From positions 1 to 28,032 of IMG/VR virus record IMGVR_UViG_3300027771_001122: a DNA stretch of 28,032 nucleotides, one strand, 5' to 3'. The stretch is from a virus. The notes beneath the pieces are model-generated. The model searched no databases. It saw only the letters and a list, made by a program, of their open reading frames with translations, and was not told the DNA's origin. Positions within the stretch are counted from its first letter, which is position 1. Every line of letters begins with the position of its first letter. The position numbers and the translations under genes were made by a program. This document shows, in pieces, positions 4,724 to 28,032 of this stretch.

Positions 4724-5014
4724 TTATGCTGCAGCGTTGATTAAAAATGGAGTGACTAACAAGCCAGCCATGCAGATGGTTGAAACAAAAACTGCAATGG
4801 TGATACCAAAGTTTATGCTGTCTTGCTTCAATGGCTTGTGGTTCAGGTTTAACTTGGTTCTAATCTTAAGCTGTCGTTTTGTCCTAGCTGCAATTCTGCC
4901 TTGAAGCTCCAGCCGCTTATCAATCATGCGGCTATCATATGGAGTGCAGACAGTGCCAGTGCTTAAAGGCATCTTAAGAGAGTGAGCAAACTGTAATTGG
5001 GTCATATCGTTCAT
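4724..5014 (-). CDS. Putative single-pass membrane protein, first early gene
   Basis: A 96-residue protein with a basic central part (IAARTKRQLKIRTKLNLNHK) and a C-terminal membrane helix (FGITIAVFVSTICMAGLLV), ending LINAAA. The ATG at 5014 is preceded by TAGGTAATAACAAA, a modest ribosome binding site; the frame extends upstream to 5077 without a better site. It is the first gene after the long non-coding region and about 70 bp downstream of the promoter-like site at 5082-5108. Function unknown; a membrane-acting early protein is plausible. Confidence 0.6.
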   Translation of the reverse strand: MNDMTQLQFAHSLKMPLSTGTVCTPYDSRMIDKRLELQGRIAARTKRQLKIRTKLNLNHKPLKQDSINFGITIAVFVSTICMAGLLVTPFLINAAA

Positions 5015-5081
5015 TTTGTTATTACCTATATAAGTGGGTTGGTCCGATTCAGCACTGCAGCCGCCTCGGTACTGCAACTAA

Positions 5082-5108
5082 CTATAGTGAATGGTTTGAG
5101 GATTGCAA
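5082..5108 (-). promoter_or_regulatory. Promoter-like site upstream of the early genes
   Basis: On the minus strand, TCAAACCATTCACTATAG (5099 to 5082) matches the T7 RNA polymerase promoter TAATACGACTCACTATAG at 14 of 18 positions, including an unbroken TCACTATAG. The same DNA also reads as a host sigma-70 promoter: TTGCAA, 16 bases, TATAGT. Position ahead of the first early gene favours the sigma-70 reading, since early genes must be read by host polymerase. The run after the G (TTAG) is not the GGG typical of T7 promoters. Both readings are inference from sequence. Confidence 0.5.
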
Positions 5109-5153: not shown

Positions 5154-5334
5154 TCAATAGGGAATCAATAGGATGTTGGTAGATGTTGGTGGATGTTTGG
5201 AGTTCAGTTGGAGTTCAGTTGGAGTTCAATAGGTTGTCAATAGGTTGTTCAATGAGAAAAACAAAAACGGAAAAGTGTAAGTAGATGGAGAAAACAGACA
5301 GCACCATTATAGATAGTCAATAGGACCTCAATAG
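5154..5334. repeat. Array of short phased direct repeats (11-bp and 10-bp periodicity)
   Basis: TCAATAGG occurs at 5154, 5165, 5226, 5237 and 5317, with TCAATAG at 5328: three pairs, each separated by exactly 11 bp. The related unit TCAGTTGGAGT repeats at 5204 and 5215 in the same 11-bp phase as 5226 and 5237, and a diverged TCAATGAG is at 5249. Between them a 10-bp unit GATGTTGGTA/G repeats three times at 5172-5201. A TATAAT is embedded at 5306-5311 on the minus strand. One-turn spacing suggests cooperative protein binding, as in operators or replication iterons. Short repeat arrays also flank the T7 genome ends. Function is inferred. Confidence 0.85.
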
Positions 5335-5536
5335 ATAGCCAATTGAACCCTTTATAATGGCAATAAAGGCTGGTTACCTCTTATTGATTCAGCCATGGCA
5401 GGCCCTGCAGAGCCATTAGGAAAATGATTAGGACAAATGAAAGAGTCTTGACTTGTCTTTTGATAGGGCCAAGGGGGATTTCGGGCCGTCCCTATACGTA
5501 ATTGGGGCCTCATAGTTTTTCGCCAAAACAAAAGTT

Positions 5537-5570
5537 GGAACATCCCAAAGAACTCATGCGGAACATCCCA
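5537..5570. repeat. Direct repeat GGAACATCCCA, two copies
   Basis: Perfect 11-base copies at 5537-5547 and 5560-5570, 23 bp apart start to start (about two helical turns). They lie in the post-terminase non-coding region. Purpose unknown; candidates are terminase recognition or phage-end maturation sites. Confidence 0.7.
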
Positions 5571-5600
5571 TAGACATCAAGTAGAAATCAAATAGCACAC

Positions 5601-5636
5601 ACATAAAGGATATCTTGAGGAGCTACATAAAGGATA
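5601..5636. repeat. Direct repeat ACATAAAGGATA, two copies
   Basis: Perfect 12-base copies at 5601-5612 and 5625-5636, 24 bp apart start to start. The core TAAAG is reminiscent of the CCTAAAG arrays near T7 genome ends, but the similarity is too short to prove relation. Confidence 0.65.
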
Positions 5637-5732
5637 GCTGTCGGACTATACCAAGAGAATGTTAGAGATGAACTCAGAGCTATGGTGTTGTAGATTAATA
5701 CCTCAAACATCATATCTCAGAGATTAGTCCAT

Positions 5733-5804: not shown

Positions 5805-7466
5805 TTACATCCACGTCACAGCCCTAGGTTTCTGTCCTACAGCTTGGTCCATGAACTTCTCAATCTCTCTAGAGAAAGCTTCAGCCTTCTGAATGCTAGC
5901 CATCGACTCACTATCAGCGTCCATCTGTTCAGTCCAGTAGGCAACAGCCATAGCCAGAGCATCCAAGCGGTCATCATGAATGATTGCGCCTCTATCTCTG
6001 GTAAGTCTGGTCATCTGGTAGAACAAACTGTAAGCAGGTTCAGGAGCACTGTCATAGTCTTCCTTAATGAGCTTCTCATCGACTACCAAACGGTGCTGCA
6101 TCATCACAGGCTCAAGGGTATCTATCATCCTCAACTCCTTCTGAGTGGAGTGACGGACTTCTTCTATAGCTACCTTGTGAATCCTATTGAGGATGGGTGT
6201 AAGTAACTTCACATACATACCATCACCGAAGTTAGACTCGACAATAATCATGTTCACAGACTCTTGCTTAGCGACTGTAGCTAGATTGGTCAACGTCTTG
6301 TCTGAGTAGCCTCCTGTGAAGCCACCTATACGAGTGACATACAGGTAACCATTCAACATCTTCACAACAGCATAGGCTGTCTCATCCTTACCACGACCAG
6401 ATGGGTCAATGGACATAACTGAACCTTGGAAGTCCAACATGTCATCAGACATCCACATAGGACGATAGAACTTATCACCTGTGAATCCAACGATAGGGAC
6501 ATCTTGTACTATCTGAGAAGGTCCAGAGGCCCACGCTAGGTCAGCCCACCCCTTCTTAGGGTTCAATGCAGTCACCATCAAATCTGCTAGCTTCAGAGGG
6601 TACTTATCAGCATCTGCTAATGTAGTATCCAACATGAATTGTAGAGCAAATCCAGCCTTACCATAGGAAGCTTCACGCTCCATCAGGTCTTCTTTGGTGA
6701 ATCGTTGAGGCTCAGTAGGAGCACCCCCCTGGTTCTCTCTACGGAGGTCTATGAAGGGAGCTAATCTGCCTTGATACATTGAGGCCTGTTTGTCTGTGGG
6801 GTACCTAGCAGGCCACACACGTATCTCATAGCCACGTTCTGGCAGGAGGTTGTATATGGACATCTCTGTCTGAGGTGTACCAAGATAAATCACACGACCA
6901 TTAGGCTTTAGAACAGCATCAAACTCTTTGATAGCTTCAGATAACTTGTCTCTCATAGTCTGAGTAGCGGAGTTGTTTGTAACTTCCACGTCATCTGCGA
7001 TTATTGTCTGAGCGCGTGAACCTGTAAGCTGACCTGAGATGCCCACTGACTTAACTGAAGGGGAATGGTCGGGTAAGCTAGGCCCAACATCAAAAGCAAT
7101 GACAGAATCACGCTGACCATTTTTAGTTCTAAGGTGGGCGAGTAGTTCAATTTCATTGATAAGTCTTTTAGTAAATGTTGAGAAGGCATCAGCACGTTCT
7201 TTGGAGGCTGATACAACGAGAATCTTGTGTTGAGGGTCACAATATAACAACCACACCACATAGGCTGAAGTTATCCATGACTTACCGATGCCACGGAATG
7301 CTTCAATGACACAACGTCTAGGCCCCATTTGGAGGTAGCTTCCCATGTCGTACTGGATTGGGGTAGGGTCTGGGAGATTCAGGGTGTGCCATACAATCCA
7401 TAAGAATTTACGGAAGTCTTGTTTGATAGGGTCGTCTACTACCAACTGAGTGGAGGGTTGTGCCAT
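5805..7466 (-). CDS. terL: Terminase large subunit (T7 gp19-like DNA maturase B)
   Basis: A 553-residue packaging motor that threads DNA into the prohead and cuts concatemers. The N-terminal ATPase has a Walker A AFRGIGKS (residues 56-63) and Walker B QTIIADD (D158, D159), followed by the coupling motif YLGTPQ (194-199). The C-terminal nuclease has SIDPSGRGKDE (D354), IIVES (E410) and HDDRLDA (D499, D502). The length is near that of T7 gp19 (586). ATG is preceded by TAGGTAACAC. It lies 7 bp after the small subunit and is the last late gene before the non-coding junction. Confidence 0.97.
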   Translation of the reverse strand: MAQPSTQLVVDDPIKQDFRKFLWIVWHTLNLPDPTPIQYDMGSYLQMGPRRCVIEAFRGIGKSWITSAYVVWLLYCDPQHKILVVSASKERADAFSTFTKRLINEIELLAHLRTKNGQRDSVIAFDVGPSLPDHSPSVKSVGISGQLTGSRAQTIIADDVEVTNNSATQTMRDKLSEAIKEFDAVLKPNGRVIYLGTPQTEMSIYNLLPERGYEIRVWPARYPTDKQASMYQGRLAPFIDLRRENQGGAPTEPQRFTKEDLMEREASYGKAGFALQFMLDTTLADADKYPLKLADLMVTALNPKKGWADLAWASGPSQIVQDVPIVGFTGDKFYRPMWMSDDMLDFQGSVMSIDPSGRGKDETAYAVVKMLNGYLYVTRIGGFTGGYSDKTLTNLATVAKQESVNMIIVESNFGDGMYVKLLTPILNRIHKVAIEEVRHSTQKELRMIDTLEPVMMQHRLVVDEKLIKEDYDSAPEPAYSLFYQMTRLTRDRGAIIHDDRLDALAMAVAYWTEQMDADSESMASIQKAEAFSREIEKFMDQAVGQKPRAVTWM

Positions 7467-7473
7467 GTGTTAC

Positions 7474-7704
7474 CTAGTGTCTGGGGAGTTCATCTTCACT
7501 GAAGTCAGGAAGAGCATGAATAAGATTGTCCAAAGGGTTGCCTTGGGTCGGTACACCATCAATGCCGTTGTCCTTGAGGAACTGACGGGCTACGTTGAGG
7601 ATGCTTGCAGATGTATCACCAGCCTGTACTTGACCTAGCAGTTGTGTAGCTAGTTCAGCGTGAAGGTCTGCCATGATTTCTTCTAAGCGGTTGCTTGTGC
7701 TCAT
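7474..7704 (-). CDS. terS: Terminase small subunit (T7 gp18-like DNA maturase A)
   Basis: A 76-residue protein of the T7 gp18 type, which recognises phage DNA and delivers it to the large subunit. Features are an N-terminal helix NRLEEIMADLHAELATQLL, then ILNVARQFLKDNGIDGVPTQ, typical of this family, and an acidic tail DFSEDELPRH. The ATG overlaps the stop of the holin gene as ATGA and AAAGGACTTACATC is upstream. The order holin-terS-terL is as in T7 (17.5-18-19). T7 places an Rz gene (18.5) between terS and terL; it is absent here. Confidence 0.85.
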   Translation of the reverse strand: MSTSNRLEEIMADLHAELATQLLGQVQAGDTSASILNVARQFLKDNGIDGVPTQGNPLDNLIHALPDFSEDELPRH

Positions 7705-9570: not shown

Positions 9571-10556
<986 letters not shown>

Positions 10557-10557
<1 letters not shown>

Positions 10558-12008
10558 TAGATTGTTACCTCTAGTTCACCGTTTGAATTGATTGAGAAGT
10601 CTTGGTCTGCGGCACTACCGTAATATTCGATAGTCAGCATTCCTGTGTTCGGGTCCATGTAGAAGTTACCGAAGGCAAGTCCTAATGCAGTTGGACCGAG
10701 AGGACCAGCAGCACCCACAGGACCTGTAGGGCCTAATGGGCCTTGGTCACCATCGACACCTTTGTTACCAAAGTCTCCTTGAATACCTTGAGGACCGTCT
10801 GGGCCTAGTGGTCCTGTAGAACCTGTTGGTCCTTGTGAGCCTGTAGCTCCTAATGGACCGTCATCACCTACTGGGCCTTGAGAACCTGTCAGTCCCGTAG
10901 GACCTTGAGAACCTGTAGAACCAGTAGCACCAACAGGGCCTTCATTACCTACTGGGCCTTGAACACCTGTCTCTCCTGTAGGGCCTTGAGTACCTGTAGA
11001 ACCAGTGGGTCCCATAGGACCGTCACCACCTTCAGGGCCTTGTGTACCTGTGATGCCAGTTGGGCCTTGTTGACCTGCCTCACCAGTTGGCCCAAGAGGA
11101 CCATCATTACCTTCGGGGCCTTGAGAACCAGTTCCACCTGTCGCACCTGTAGGACCTTCATCACCAACAACACCTTGTATGCCTGTTGGGCCTACGGGTC
11201 CTGCTGTGCCACGGGGGCCTTGGCTACCTGTAACTCCTTGGTCACCTATAGCACCTGTGTTACCTAATTCACCCTGCTCACCACGGGGTCCTTCAGGTCC
11301 AATAACACCTTGAGGTCCAAATGGTCCTTGAGGGCCAGTGCCGCCTGTATCACCTGTTGCACCTATTGGTCCTTGAGGGCCTTCAGATAGTGAGAAGGTG
11401 AGTAAGCCTGTGTTTACATCATAGTCAACAGAGCCTGTGGCTCCATAAGGAAGCGAGGTCATTGCTGTGGTTAAGCCATATAGCTCATCACGTATGTGAA
11501 CTACATCGGTGTGCTTGATTACAACGTCATTGTGCTTGGCTAACACTTCGCCATGCTTGGTTGTCACGTCTGGCATAACACCATCAGCGTAGGCTTTGGT
11601 CACCACATCAGTTGGTTCAACAGGAGGAGCTATGTTTGCTAGCCGTTTGTTTGCAGCATCGAAAGCGCCTGCTGCATTTAATTGAATTGAGTTGTCTGCA
11701 GCGTCAAAAGCTTCTTGAGCTACATGGAATAACTGGTTGCTGTCTGTATCAAGAGAAGCTTCATTTAGAATTGAGCCATCTTGGAAATCAACAACGCGAA
11801 GTTCACGGTTGGTTGTTCTTCTAATGTCTATCACATCACCTATAGTAGGCGGTGTACTAAACTGTATGCGGCTTGAATCAAGCCATGTGAATGTACTAGC
11901 AACGCCATCAACAGATGCGCTCACTGTGTCCTGTGTCAGGTAAGTGAAGGTAACTATATAAGACGAAGTAGTACCGTCACCTGTGTATTGCACAAAGGAT
12001 AAGGCCAT
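10557..12008 (-). CDS. Tail fibre with T7 gp17-type N-terminus and collagen-like shaft
   Basis: A 483-residue fibre. Residues 1-150 match the T7 gp17 N-terminal domain that anchors fibres to the tail ([51 protein letters not shown]). A short heptad-like linker ([20 protein letters not shown]) leads to collagen Gly-X-Y repeats at about residues 210-440. The C-terminus repeats a strand motif that also precedes the collagen part ([11 protein letters not shown] before, [11 protein letters not shown] after). The globular T7 receptor-binding tip is replaced. It follows an intrinsic terminator, so it needs read-through or its own promoter. Confidence 0.92.
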
Positions 12009-15000: not shown

Positions 15001-16273
15001 CTGCAAGACCTTTAGGCATTACTGTTGTTGATTTGATTTTCTCTCCTGACGTTACCTCTATAACAGTGTCTACAGAATCAGAACCATCGTAGACAATGCC
15101 CCAATCTTCATCAGTAAACTCATCAGCAAAGTCACCCTCAAAGTCTTCCAGCCAATCAGCTTCAGTGGCTGCATCATCAGGATTGAAGTCATCAGTTAAG
15201 TCATCAAGTACTTTAGGAGTCTCAACAACTTCACCGATTACTTCATCAGCCTGAACAACACCTTCATCAATCACTTCATCAGCAACTTCATTGACTTGCT
15301 CAGCAACTTCATTGACTTGCTCAGCAACTTCATCAGTATTCTTTACTAACTTACTGGCAGCACGTTTACCTGTCCACGCAGCTAAGCTGCCTATAAGAGT
15401 GAAACCAGCCACAACACCTATGCCTGTCATGGTTGCAGCTTCAGCAACGTCATACTCACCCTGCTGCCCTGTATCAATCTTAATCTTCTGTTGCATGAGG
15501 TTGTCAGCACCCATGTATCCACCGATTTCAACGGCTCCAACTGTGCCTGCACCAGCAGTAGATAGAAGCATCTTCTTAACAGCACTCGCTGCCATAGGCT
15601 TTAGGGCTATCTTAGAAAGTGCAGATAGTACAAAGCCTAATCCAATGTAGGTTGTTGGGTCACCAGCAAGGCCTTCAAATGCTCTCCTTGTGGTAGCCAG
15701 TGAGATAGGAAGTTCTTCGTACTGGGCCATTAAACGAACCAGCGCAACCTGTTCTTCGTCAGACCAATCACCAACATCGAATGCTAGATTACCCGTCTTG
15801 ACCATGTTCCAGCGTGTGGTACCTAACCAATCAAGAGTCTCGGAAGTCATATCACTGTCAGACATTGAGTCACGATAAGCTGCACGATACGCAGGGTCAG
15901 TGCGTTTCTGTTCATCTATCTTGGCCTGCATATCTTCTATGCTAGGCTGCGTAACACCTTTCGCCATATCTGCGGCAAAGGAATGCCCTTGGTTCAGTGG
16001 TGAAGGACGTGCAGGGGCTTTGATAATCCTAGAGGACAATGTGCGTGAATCCGCTACAGACTGAGTGTCTGCGTGGAACGCCTCTTCATTGAACACAGGA
16101 AGTTCTTCAAGCCCTGCTTCCTCCCGTGTAAATGGAATGGCTGTGCTTTTCACAACAGGGACATTGGGTACATCGTCAGGGAGTTCTTCAGGGCGTGGTG
16201 CTTCTTGCTCTTCAGGCCCCTCCCCTTGGATTGCCCAAATGTCCTCAGTTGCATATTTATTTTCACTACTCAT
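12077..16273 (-). CDS. Large internal virion/ejection protein (T7 gp16-like)
   Basis: A 1398-residue protein in the position of T7 gp16 (1318), which is ejected into the cell and builds the DNA-translocation channel. An acidic N-terminus is followed by hydrophobic segments at about residues 209-224, 237-255 and 281-300 that could insert into the inner membrane. A Val/Glu/Asp-rich linker (314-395) includes tandem EVAEQVN repeats. The helical C-terminal half contains FRRAPVNSISYALQYAPL, as in large ejection proteins of podoviruses. I do not see the transglycosylase domain that opens T7 gp16. AAGGAAAATAAACA precedes the ATG. Confidence 0.85.
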   Translation of the reverse strand: MSSENKYATEDIWAIQGEGPEEQEAPRPEELPDDVPNVPVVKSTAIPFTREEAGLEELPVFNEEAFHADTQSVADSRTLSSRIIKAPARPSPLNQGHSFAADMAKGVTQPSIEDMQAKIDEQKRTDPAYRAAYRDSMSDSDMTSETLDWLGTTRWNMVKTGNLAFDVGDWSDEEQVALVRLMAQYEELPISLATTRRAFEGLAGDPTTYIGLGFVLSALSKIALKPMAASAVKKMLLSTAGAGTVGAVEIGGYMGADNLMQQKIKIDTGQQGEYDVAEAATMTGIGVVAGFTLIGSLAAWTGKRAASKLVKNTDEVAEQVNEVAEQVNEVADEVIDEGVVQADEVIGEVVETPKVLDDLTDDFNPDDAATEADWLEDFEGDFADEFTDEDWGIVYDGSDSVDTVIEVTSGEKIKSTTVMPKGLAGSKPRYGYQGENFKIKFDSDVDKALFIVASKGSKAHDEHMRFLRGVFPDKLEEEIDEMAQSVKAKLKEGAKNGDVDLDGDLVINTMFEPSKKPRRPSGESKANDPKPSIYEEGNTRAMPYNVDRMSTSKDVQNLVLERAEKYLDENPRDSQTLEMVAEEGKVAAKELAESTGGDFNSIIKLLKGDLDAQRAITARIKSTRDLHAWTFGELKRLAYKHADTGIEGGLSRKEIVELLKVVEMTNALTPLTLKQSQSASQVLGSRRAMAIADDTLIRGGFVDDVQNTAEKALEAEAETILPVIDAQGMLAIENGNGPIVVDKLVKDIINGLESGKIKGPKEIRDLLEPSRWKKIVAEVNRVRAGSMLGGISTMTLAAVSNHFQMIYQPALEYVSRHNFGLTKASRASKMEDALARTRALAQYSGNMQYYKQGWKTAMKAVKMGVHISDPSVTHLESSAHQAGNQFKSKKRIIYENVTGYAHTVLMALDEQHKFTRAHSLAFADAVVEAKRLELTAKEQGKTSFKVGSEEYTKFIEKEIASKFDESGRVIDEAIMREVRMETFTEELVGPVGSLVNGIARMGGGVGAFVLPFRRAPVNSISYALQYAPLPELITKHISAKQKQILASGDKVQIAKLRARKKVGAMAIAYLWYTAESNELTGGGPSDWKMRKAWELAGNKPYTINIGGIPVPYEKIEPFSTIMGSVANAHYIWKMNPEKYQDGTASILEAIQMSVTHSILNKAYFQSINDWMKMLTGEDNKTTSVIYGAVTSFVPNMSNQMNRDPNVREATSLMEQVQRKLAGWSDELGAQYDVTGQPMLKPNDGWNLFKTPDVRADTQSVAKTVFQEIFDLRIVQDKEGLLGEPPRNLSAGRVDYREIYDRGEKESVYAKYNRFIGETEIRGESLESALYTLITSDKYMELQKSPYLDVNSPHVALLAKVVKRYRDKAKIRLLKESPIFEQMYQDLDFRKHEVKKQLF
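15280..15334 (-). repeat. In-frame 21-bp tandem repeat inside the gp16-like gene
   Basis: Two perfect 21-base units (15280-15300, 15301-15321) plus a partial third copy. On the coding strand they encode EVAEQVN twice followed by EVADEV, an acidic coiled-coil-like linker. The unit length is a multiple of three, so copy number can change without a frameshift. Confidence 0.9.
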
Positions 16274-25874: not shown

Positions 25875-26576
25875 CTATGCTTGACTTTTATCAAACGCTT
25901 CAATCCACATCTTACATTCTGCACTACGTACAACATCATCAATGGTGAATTCAATCACAGGCACTGGTAAGTTATAGCGTTGGGCAAGGTCAATGATTGT
26001 TGATAGGCCACTGGTTGTTTTGATATCAGATTGTTTAATGTCACCATTGATTACGATGCGGCAGTTCTCACCGATACGGGTGGTGAACATCTTCATCTCT
26101 TCTGGTGTTGTGTTCTGAGCTTCGTCCATGATGACAAAGGCATCACTGAATGATGAACCACGCATGGTTTCAAACGGGGCAACGATGATTGCACCCCGTC
26201 TTATGGCATTTTCATAAGCACCCCCCATGCAGTTCCTAAGCACTTCAACCACTGGAGTAGTCCACGGAGCCATCTTCTCTTCTAGAGTGCCAGGAAATGA
26301 ACCTAGGGACCTTGACGAAGGCACATTAGGACGTGTCAGGATTATCTTATCGATAGTTCCTTTCATGTATAACTGTGCTGCCATTGTGCTAGCGATGTAG
26401 GTCTTACCTGTACCAGCGCAGCCTAAGCTGATGGTCTGGGTGAAGTTGTTAATCGCCTCAATGTAACGTGCTTGCATCTGAGTCTTAGGGTGTAGTGCAG
26501 TGCGAGGTGAGCGTTCTTCTTCGAACTTCTCTTTAATCTCTCGCTTAGGTTTTTGCTTACGTATTTGTCGAGACAT
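25875..26576 (-). CDS. phoH: PhoH-like P-loop ATPase
   Basis: A PhoH-family nucleotide-binding protein of about 233 residues. It has Walker A GCAGTGKT (about residue 52 onward from this start), then IILTRPNVPSSRSLGSFPGT, Walker B FVIMDEAQN and the sensor-like IVINGDIKQSDI. phoH is a widespread auxiliary gene of marine phages; its role is uncertain and may concern RNA metabolism or phosphate stress rather than phosphate uptake directly. The start is uncertain: the ATG at 26576 avoids overlap with the ribonucleotide reductase gene, while an ATG at 26594 has a slightly better GGTGA. The N-terminus is very basic (SRQIRKQKPKREIKEKFEEE). Confidence 0.93.
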   Translation of the reverse strand: MSRQIRKQKPKREIKEKFEEERSPRTALHPKTQMQARYIEAINNFTQTISLGCAGTGKTYIASTMAAQLYMKGTIDKIILTRPNVPSSRSLGSFPGTLEEKMAPWTTPVVEVLRNCMGGAYENAIRRGAIIVAPFETMRGSSFSDAFVIMDEAQNTTPEEMKMFTTRIGENCRIVINGDIKQSDIKTTSGLSTIIDLAQRYNLPVPVIEFTIDDVVRSAECKMWIEAFDKSQA

Positions 26577-26581
26577 GTTCT

Positions 26582-27535
26582 TTACCATCCCCATGAGTCA
26601 CCAGACATTCCGTCTGCTGAGTAGTCTGTTACGCGACCTTCAAAGAAATTCTTGAAGCTGTCGCCATTTAATACCCAATCTAGCCAAGGCAGTGGGTTCT
26701 CTTGAATATCCCAATTAGGCTTCAATCCTAGGTTTACCAATCGCCTGTCTGCGATGAACCTGATATACGTCTTAACTTCGCTTGCGCTGAGACCTTCCAT
26801 AGGACCCAATTCAAACGCCAAATCAATAACCTTATCCTCAAGTGACACAGCAGTGCGGTACATCTCGTAGATACCCAGCTTGAATTCATCTGTTACTACC
26901 TCTGGATTTTCTTTAATAAATGTTCTGAATATCTCAGTCATACCTGCAACATGGATAGTCTCATCACGGATAGACCATTCAACTATCTCGCACATGCCTT
27001 TCAACTTTCCAAAGCGTTGGAAGTTAAGCAGCATCACGAATGCAGAGAACAGGGACATACCTTCATTACACACAGTCTGGGCAAGAGCTTTTGCTAGGCC
27101 AGCTTTAGTATCAGGGTCAAAGTCCTGCATGAACTCAATCTTCTCAGACATCGCATCGTATTCAAGGAAGGCTGTGTACTCAGCTTCAGGGAATCCAAGG
27201 GTGTCATTGAGCAGCGCATACGAGCGCATGTGGATAGTCTCTCGGTGGGCGAATGACAGCATCATCATCCTAGCTTCGTTGTTTTTAATACGTGGCAGGA
27301 ACACGTCAACATAGCTACCCCCGACTATCACATCTGACTGTGTAAATAGACGAAGGATTTGGGTGATGAAGTTCTTCTCAGGTGGGCTAATCTTTCCAGA
27401 CTTCCACTGAGCTACATCTTCATTAAGGTCACACTCCCACTCACCCCAGTGAAGCTTGTCATGTTCAATTGCTTGGTTGACAAAGCTAGGGTTAGCGAAA
27501 GGTTTGTATGCTGCTGATTGTGTTAGTAAGCTCAT
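26582..27535 (-). CDS. nrdB: Ribonucleotide reductase class I beta subunit
   Basis: A 317-residue diiron/tyrosyl-radical subunit which, with the alpha subunit, makes deoxynucleotides for phage replication. Metal ligands are visible in RETIHMRSY (Glu, His, then the radical Tyr), in NEGMSLFSAF (Glu) and in RDETIHVAGM (Glu, His). The ATG at 27535 follows CCAAGGATAACA, just after the alpha stop; a frame extension to 27559 overlaps nrdA. The C-terminus ends SGDSWGW, of the type that docks into alpha. The Tyr position (E-x-x-H-x-x-x-Y) is intact, so an active class Ia-type enzyme is expected. Confidence 0.96.
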   Translation of the reverse strand: MSLLTQSAAYKPFANPSFVNQAIEHDKLHWGEWECDLNEDVAQWKSGKISPPEKNFITQILRLFTQSDVIVGGSYVDVFLPRIKNNEARMMMLSFAHRETIHMRSYALLNDTLGFPEAEYTAFLEYDAMSEKIEFMQDFDPDTKAGLAKALAQTVCNEGMSLFSAFVMLLNFQRFGKLKGMCEIVEWSIRDETIHVAGMTEIFRTFIKENPEVVTDEFKLGIYEMYRTAVSLEDKVIDLAFELGPMEGLSASEVKTYIRFIADRRLVNLGLKPNWDIQENPLPWLDWVLNGDSFKNFFEGRVTDYSADGMSGDSWGW

Positions 27536-27537
27536 TG

Positions 27538-28032
27538 TTATCCTTGGCAGCTTAGGCACTCATCGTCATCTACAGCATAGTCTTTGAGAGCTACACGGGT
27601 GGGCTTGAAGCTCACTGTATCCGCTTTAGCTCCAGCACTTGTCCGAAGATAATAGAGTCCTTTAAGTTTCTTGTTGAAGGCACGAAGATGTACCTCATTG
27701 ACGTAGGCCTTATCTGTCCCTGCTGGGAAGAAGAGGTTCACTGATTGACCTTGGCAGATGTACGGTTGACGTTCTGCGGCATGGTCTACTACCCATCGTT
27801 GGTCTAGCTCGAAAGCTGTCTTGTAGATTTCTTTATCCCAATCATCCATCCACTCAAGGTGCTGTACGCTACCTTCATTGAGTATGATTGAGGTCCACTG
27901 CTCTTCCATCCACTTGTCAGATGAACCTTGCCAGAGTTCAGCATATGCTCTGATGACCTTATCTAGGTAAGGGTTACGGACAAGGTGAGCGCCTACACGG
28001 GTACGGTGTGTAAAGGCGTTTGACTTCAAAGG
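27538..28032 (-). CDS. nrdA: Ribonucleotide reductase alpha subunit, C-terminal part (cut by window edge)
   Basis: Only the last 164 codons are in the window; the 5' part lies beyond 28032. Visible marks are AAERQPYICQGQSVNLFF (catalytic-barrel segment), then LKGLYYLRT with the Tyr-Tyr pair of the radical-transfer path, and the C-terminal redox pair in DECLSCQG, which is reduced by thioredoxin or glutaredoxin. The overlap-free 2-bp junction with nrdB indicates an operon. No intein or other insertion in the visible part. Confidence 0.95.
   Translation of the reverse strand, partial: PLKSNAFTHRTRVGAHLVRNPYLDKVIRAYAELWQGSSDKWMEEQWTSIILNEGSVQHLEWMDDWDKEIYKTAFELDQRWVVDHAAERQPYICQGQSVNLFFPAGTDKAYVNEVHLRAFNKKLKGLYYLRTSAGAKADTVSFKPTRVALKDYAVDDDECLSCQG

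Follow-up and report, generated by a model that had tools for sequence, protein, structure and literature searches.

A short-period repeat array beside the terminase gene of an uncultured T7-like phage, a likely genome-end repeat block at a concatemer junction of the T7 type

Background

The closest described counterparts of the locus studied here are the concatemer junctions of phages T7 and T3. In T7, copies of CCTAAAG directly adjoin the terminal repeat on its right, where most are spaced 13 bp apart, and others lie within the repeat and on its left side; the arrays flanking the terminal repeat are named SRL and SRR in the T7 literature. The heptamer ATCTGTT is described in a passage of PMC11617373 as a class II pause or termination sequence that is present also at the concatemer junction, and an excerpt of PMC3276506 states that the polymerase paused at this junction interacts with gp18 and gp19, starting maturation and packaging. 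T7-like phages can also be temperate, as presented for LUZ100 in part of PMC10134795, where a MarR-like regulator is proposed to control lysis and lysogeny in related temperate phages.

A stretch of 28,032 nt (the window) was analysed here. It is a 28-kb fragment of viral DNA from a T7-like phage whose main genes lie on the minus strand, and it carries a short-period repeat array between the large terminase gene and the first early gene. A first-pass annotation had proposed three roles for this array: operators of the MarR-like protein, a replication origin, or an equivalent of the repeats flanking the T7 ends.

Results

Genome setting

The features of the locus, in the order of the phage coding strand, are as follows.

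7474–7704, minus strand: small terminase (phrog_891), putative reader of the arrays
5805–7466, minus strand: large terminase (phrog_38)
5537–5640, minus strand: weaker array, the second of the locus, between the terminase gene and the predicted terminal repeat, recognised in the sequence, with units CTATTTGATTT / CTACTTGATGT / CTATGGGATGT, GATGTTCC and ATCCTTTATGT
5503–5521, minus strand: left-end signature GAAAAACTATGAG-GCCCCA, immediately ahead of the predicted cut, in a conserved alignment block
5300–5502, minus strand: predicted direct terminal repeat of about 203 bp, placed by the left-end signature, a pause-like element and the end of contig L005
5317–5335, minus strand: CCTATTGA / TCTATTGA pair, within the predicted terminal repeat and close to its right edge
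5291–5299, minus strand: GTCTGTTTT, similar to ATCTGTT(TT), the class II pause sequence at the concatemer junction of T7
5256–5268, minus strand: GTTTTTGTTTTTC, T-rich element kept in relatives (8-sequence alignment), directly ahead of the main block
5154–5256, minus strand: main right-hand repeat block, of left-genome-end type, recognised by its sequence and a lag-11 peak; units on the phage strand are CTCATTGA at 5256, CCTATTGA at 5244 and 5233, CCAACTGA at 5222 and 5211, CCAAAC/CCAAC at 5200, 5189 and 5179, and CCTATTGA at 5172 and 5161
5081–5108, minus strand: possible early host-type promoter TTGCAA-16-TATAGT (weak)
4724–5014, minus strand: first early gene, conserved in relatives

The promoter-like site, about 46 bp beyond the array, is a single sigma-70-like match where 2.4 were expected from shuffles. 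An integrase (42–1178) adjoins a MarR-like regulator (1190–1543, phrog_9665), and this pairing at 42–1543 suggests a temperate T7-like phage comparable to LUZ100. The name MarR-like is that of the first-pass annotation and the LUZ100 paper; the PHROGs label is transcriptional regulator. Elsewhere in the window, a PhoH-like gene and ribonucleotide reductase subunits lie beside structural genes (25875–28029), two adjacent genes, which may encode collagen-like tail proteins, contain long 9-bp-based tandem repeats (9571–12008), and a gene of 1398 residues contains 12- and 21-bp tandem repeats (15106–15448).

Record G001, which is 99.8–99.9% identical to the window where compared, encodes a T7-type RNA polymerase. 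This enzyme was matched in 12 of the 14 records searched, the two without a match (the window and G004) being fragments, and a family A DNA polymerase was found in 9 of 9 records. G001 (L142, L143) is 49.7 kb long and has two family A DNA polymerases; its DNA polymerase region occurs in two diverged copies, 75% identical in DNA over 5 kb and 40.4 kb apart, so two related phages seem to have been joined. G001 is probably a chimera of these, and the join point could in principle lie within the window. The order from terminase to array is regarded as natural, since independent relatives have the same order and can be aligned through the junction.

Units and register of the array

In the window sequence, TCAATAGG is present exactly at 5154, 5165, 5226, 5237 and 5317 and TCAATAGA at 5328, forming three pairs with an internal spacing of 11 bp each, as the first-pass annotation had reported. 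On the minus strand, which is the coding strand of the phage, the unit reads CCTATTGA. Two copies of TCAGTTGGAGT at 5204 and 5215 are in register with TCAATAGGTTG at 5226 and 5237, as had been claimed for these four positions; the three pairs themselves lie 72 and 80 bp from each other and so have no single 11-bp register in common. A 10-bp unit, which had been counted three times at 5172–5201, is exact at 5172 and 5182 (GATGTTGGT) and is followed at 5192 by a variant, GATGTTTGG. Read along the phage strand, one continuous 11-bp register of six units (CCTATTGA, CCAACTGA and CCAAC variants) extends from 5244 to 5189; past 5189 come steps of 10 and then 7 bp, and the register is thus interrupted ahead of the last CCTATTGA pair. 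The CCTATTGA unit is not palindromic, all exact units of the array are on the same strand, and the only further exact copy in the window is at 6183, within the terminase gene.

The pattern TCAATAGN4TCAATAG occurs 3 times in the window versus 0 in 200 dinucleotide shuffles, and the window maximum of lag-11 identity over 80 bases (51/80) is located at 5154. The array is real and beyond chance. At other lags, and in 8-mer copy number, the coding repeats at about 9.6–11.2 kb and 15.1–15.4 kb match or surpass it.

Predicted genome ends

The position of the genome ends was calibrated on eight isolate records with duplicated ends. In five of them (T7, T3, HTVC019P, Syn5 and P-SSP7) the repeat starts exactly 6 nt after TGA[AG] and 24–26 nt before CCCCC. 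According to an excerpt of PMC3896407 the T3 ends agree with read-end mapping, and those of P-SSP7 are given as sequenced in part of PMC3350473. Among the remaining three, the annotated edge of LUZ100 is 12 nt further right, the record edge of Lo5R7ANS is 7 nt further left and contains an N, and BB8 has no TGA[AG]. The right edge continues with ATCTGTT in T7, T3 and Syn5 and with ACCTGTT in P-SSP7 (4/8); neither is present at the right edge of HTVC019P, LUZ100, BB8 or Lo5R7ANS (4/8), and only 4 of 51 loci had an ATCTGTT-like element.

In the window, the left edge reads TATGAG-GCCCCA|ATTACG, with 25 bases on to CCCCC, which predicts a left end at 5502. From GTCTGTTTT at 5299–5291, the terminal repeat is predicted to span 5300–5502. 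Contig L005, which is 100% identical to the window and comes from a metagenome other than that of contig L004 (a near-identical relative, see below), terminates at window base 5301. A right edge near 5300 is favoured on account of the GTCTGTTTT element and this contig end; the edge could also lie at the T-rich element (5269) or at CC|ATCTAC (5287), and the main block is outside the terminal repeat under all three placements. In an alignment of eight junctions, conservation extended across the terminal repeat as far as the array and took in AAAGAGG, the T-rich element and the end signature.

A looser regular expression, composed after several of the loci had been viewed, matched downstream of the terminase in 50 of 73 loci, the controls giving 2 matches (coding DNA upstream), 1 match (reverse strand) and an expectation of 3.9 (shuffles). 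It had been run on 76 of 80 terminase loci (L034, L035, L039 and L040, whose terminase matches are incomplete, were excluded) and gave 51 matches in all, the 73 being those of the 76 with at least 400 bp downstream. Some matches more than 900 bp from the terminase stop (L054, L061, L072) may be due to chance, and the expression missed L016 and L017, in which the strict signature is present, and L024, in which a variant was seen by eye. The strict 30-base signature was found in 19 contigs of the viral collection, and 19 of 19 were among the contigs found via terminase. The signature, exact in 5 of the 8 isolates, can serve as a sequence-only proposal of genome ends for many T7-like contigs whose assemblies are circular or fragmentary.

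Of the 19 strict-signature contigs, not one has its start at the predicted left end; L129 starts within the array. Contig ends fell within 30 bp in 6 of 39 cases (jitter null, 68/10000), a clustering that is weak after dereplication (429/10000, with one of the similar pair L063/L065 dropped). Five further contigs terminate 173–187 bases past their own predicted left ends. L052, L063 and L065 stop at this distance, and the related L053 and L069 continue at or near the stop point with GGGTGTTTAT, which is perhaps another form of right-end signal.

Close relatives and whole-unit changes

Among 17 loci with about 90% terminase identity, at least three CCTATTGA copies were found within 700 bases after the terminase in eight (L006, L007, L009, L010, L011, L014, L015 and L049) and one copy in three (L012, L013 and L064). 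The unit was not found in the other six (L016–L019, L008 and L041), of which L008 and L041 stop after 271 and 449 bases, respectively. Tandem CCTATTGA copies in these relatives have a 12-bp period, with 3–9 units in nine of ten contigs examined; the tenth, L012, has one unit.

Over their aligned stretch, the window differs from L004 by exactly one 11-bp unit and by nothing else, and L014, L015 and L129, which by their identifiers come from one metagenome, have 6, 8 and at least 9 units. These differences in unit count between near-identical genomes indicate that the array changes by whole units. Because of them, and because the period depends on the lineage (12 bp in these relatives, mostly 13 bp in T7), strict helical phasing is not conserved. 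A spacing of one helical turn, pointed out in the first-pass annotation, was rejected as the key property. In L014, a tandem repeat of about 18 bp, TTACTTAAATAGTTGTTG, lies between the array and the first early gene, some 575–640 bases past the terminase stop.

Arrays flanking the junction across the family

Short-period arrays were searched for on both sides of the junction at lags of 8–15, with a cut-off of at most 2 in 200 shuffles, in 26 metagenomic and 6 isolate junctions. The set had been dereplicated at 95% terminase DNA identity, and junctions with less than 300 bp on the right or 100 bp on the left were dropped, P-SSP7 included; the window was represented by L004, and CRP-114, BB8, Lo5R7ANS, RHEph21, HTVC120P and YIMV22061 were not entered. 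The right-hand stretch was 450 nt and may extend into early genes (e.g. in L026 and L067). Significant arrays were present on the right in 18/32 junctions, on the left in 16/32, on either side in 23/32 and on both in 11/32. The controls gave 0/29 in coding DNA and 6/75 in other non-coding gaps of the same loci, the latter comparison being approximate since stretch lengths were unequal. Lags of 11–13 accounted for 16 of the 18 right-hand and 14 of the 16 left-hand matches; two right-hand matches have lags of 8 and 9. In 9 of the 32 junctions, including Syn5 and T3, neither side had a significant array; in T3, copies of CCTAAAG are visible and the periodicity test was not significant. ICP3 was significant on the left (0/200) and narrowly outside the cut-off on the right (4/200), and HTVC019P was significant on the right only. 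Units vary by lineage and include CCTATTGA, GCTATCTACCA, ACCACCTAAGC and GCCCCACAAG, among others.

On the left side of L004, lag 11 was significant (0/200 shuffles). The left array of the window has CTATTTGA and CTACTTGA at 11-bp spacing, near but not equal to the right-hand unit; exact CTATTGA was not found in it, and the core that it has in common with the right array is only approximate.

The search for the array in related phages, which had been recommended in the first-pass annotation, thus gave arrays at 18 of 32 right-hand junctions, with CCTATTGA itself missing from 6 of 17 close relatives (two of them stopping early). It shows that arrays flanking the genome ends are by no means confined to T7: in varying form they extend to relatives that are uncultured and probably temperate. 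In the titles and abstract openings searched, a coverage outside which the older T7/T3 packaging papers fall, such arrays were not described, and the one CCTAAAG in an excerpt of PMC6918029, a paper on a roseophage, belongs to a PCR primer.

Discussion

Set beside the observed sequence and location of the array, its counterparts in relatives and in T7, and the whole-unit differences, the reading that we consider likely is a concatemer junction of the T7 type, with predicted ends, in which the array forms the left-genome-end repeat block. Of the three roles proposed earlier, the T7 end-flanking equivalent gained from the position at the junction and from the weaker counterpart array, while the MarR operators lost support. 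The array probably serves concatemer maturation and packaging, a role argued from knowledge of T7 and T3. In the concatemer, the order would be the terminase gene, the weaker left array, the left-end cut (5502/5503), the terminal repeat (5300–5502, about 203 bp), the pause-like GTCTGTTTT, the CCTATTGA array and the early promoter. The phage RNA polymerase may pause at the GTCTGTTTT element; the small and large terminases would gather on the many low-specificity repeat copies of both sides, and, if the repeats are needed and the predicted ends are right, would then cut both ends and start packaging. Should the arrays serve to load terminase, natural variants that are one unit apart make array function testable. 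The kind of finding is ordinary; the end signature, the wide spread and the whole-unit change are its useful parts.

The strongest rival is neutral slippage, since copy number clearly slips and some close relatives have no array; the repeats would then be its products, lying in unconstrained intergenic DNA beside a functional terminal repeat. The single 11-bp unit between the window and L004, the 6, 8 and at least 9 units within one metagenome, and the dependence of unit sequence and period on lineage all fit slippage. It accounts poorly for arrays that flank the same point left and right in distant phages, for their frequency there (18/32 and 16/32, versus 6/75 in other non-coding gaps of unequal length) and for the common strand of the exact units, and we regard it as unlikely. 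Operators through which the MarR-like regulator controls the early promoter are less likely than slippage. The regulator is present in the window, a promoter-like site lies close to the array, and such control has been proposed in temperate relatives (in part of PMC10134795), but no member of the regulator family was matched in T7, T3 or ICP3, although the arrays of T7 and ICP3 are significant and the CCTAAAG copies of T3 are visible. Overall, the family was matched in 18 of 30 records, several of the others being short fragments. The lack of a palindrome in the unit, the absence of exact units near the regulator gene or its own promoter (the other exact copy is that in the terminase) and the second array on the far side of the terminal repeat also speak against operators, which we hold to be very improbable.

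A replication origin with iterons is likewise less likely than slippage, and the most doubtful of these explanations. Direct repeats at 11-bp spacing are iteron-like in form, and nothing positive was found past this form. T7-type origins use promoters and are not known to use iterons, and against an iteron origin stand the T7-type RNA polymerase in 12/14 records, the family A DNA polymerase in 9/9 and PHROG scans of 20 window proteins (a general scan), which named no initiator.

Within the preferred reading, a genome-end repeat block, the arrays might also act as a fast-changing packaging identity code, with unit, period and copy number drifting with the small terminase in each lineage; we think this improbable. 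If true, a phage in a mixed infection would package its own concatemers and not those of a close relative. Among the first 45 of the 76 loci, L018 and L019, both without CCTATTGA, have a small terminase of 66% identity with a large terminase of 90%, which counts for the code; L024 (CCTAAAG-type array, small terminase 85% identical) and L016 (no array, small terminase 81% identical) count against it, and these comparisons are suggestive at most.

The first-pass annotation was wrong to exclude such arrays from the standard early region of T7, as the CCTAAAG repeats of T7 adjoin its terminal repeat on the right. Like those of T7, the main array of the window lies between the large terminase and the first early gene, directly to the right of the predicted terminal repeat and ahead of the early promoters and genes, consists of many same-strand copies of a 7–8-bp unit at 11–13-bp spacing, has a companion array across the terminal repeat (significant in L004) and has a unit beginning with CCTA. 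Unlike T7, the unit is CCTATTGA/CCAACTGA and not CCTAAAG, which has 5 of 7 positions in common with CCTATTG; the spacing is 11 bp and not 13 bp, and the ends are predicted. CCTAAAG is present in L018 and L024, and since units differ between lineages, its letters are taken as typical of T7 and not as defining this kind of array. ICP3 and HTVC019P, like the window, have short repeats at about 11–13-bp spacing adjoining the genome end; their units, ATCATCAAG and CACCACAAG as read by eye, differ from that of the window.
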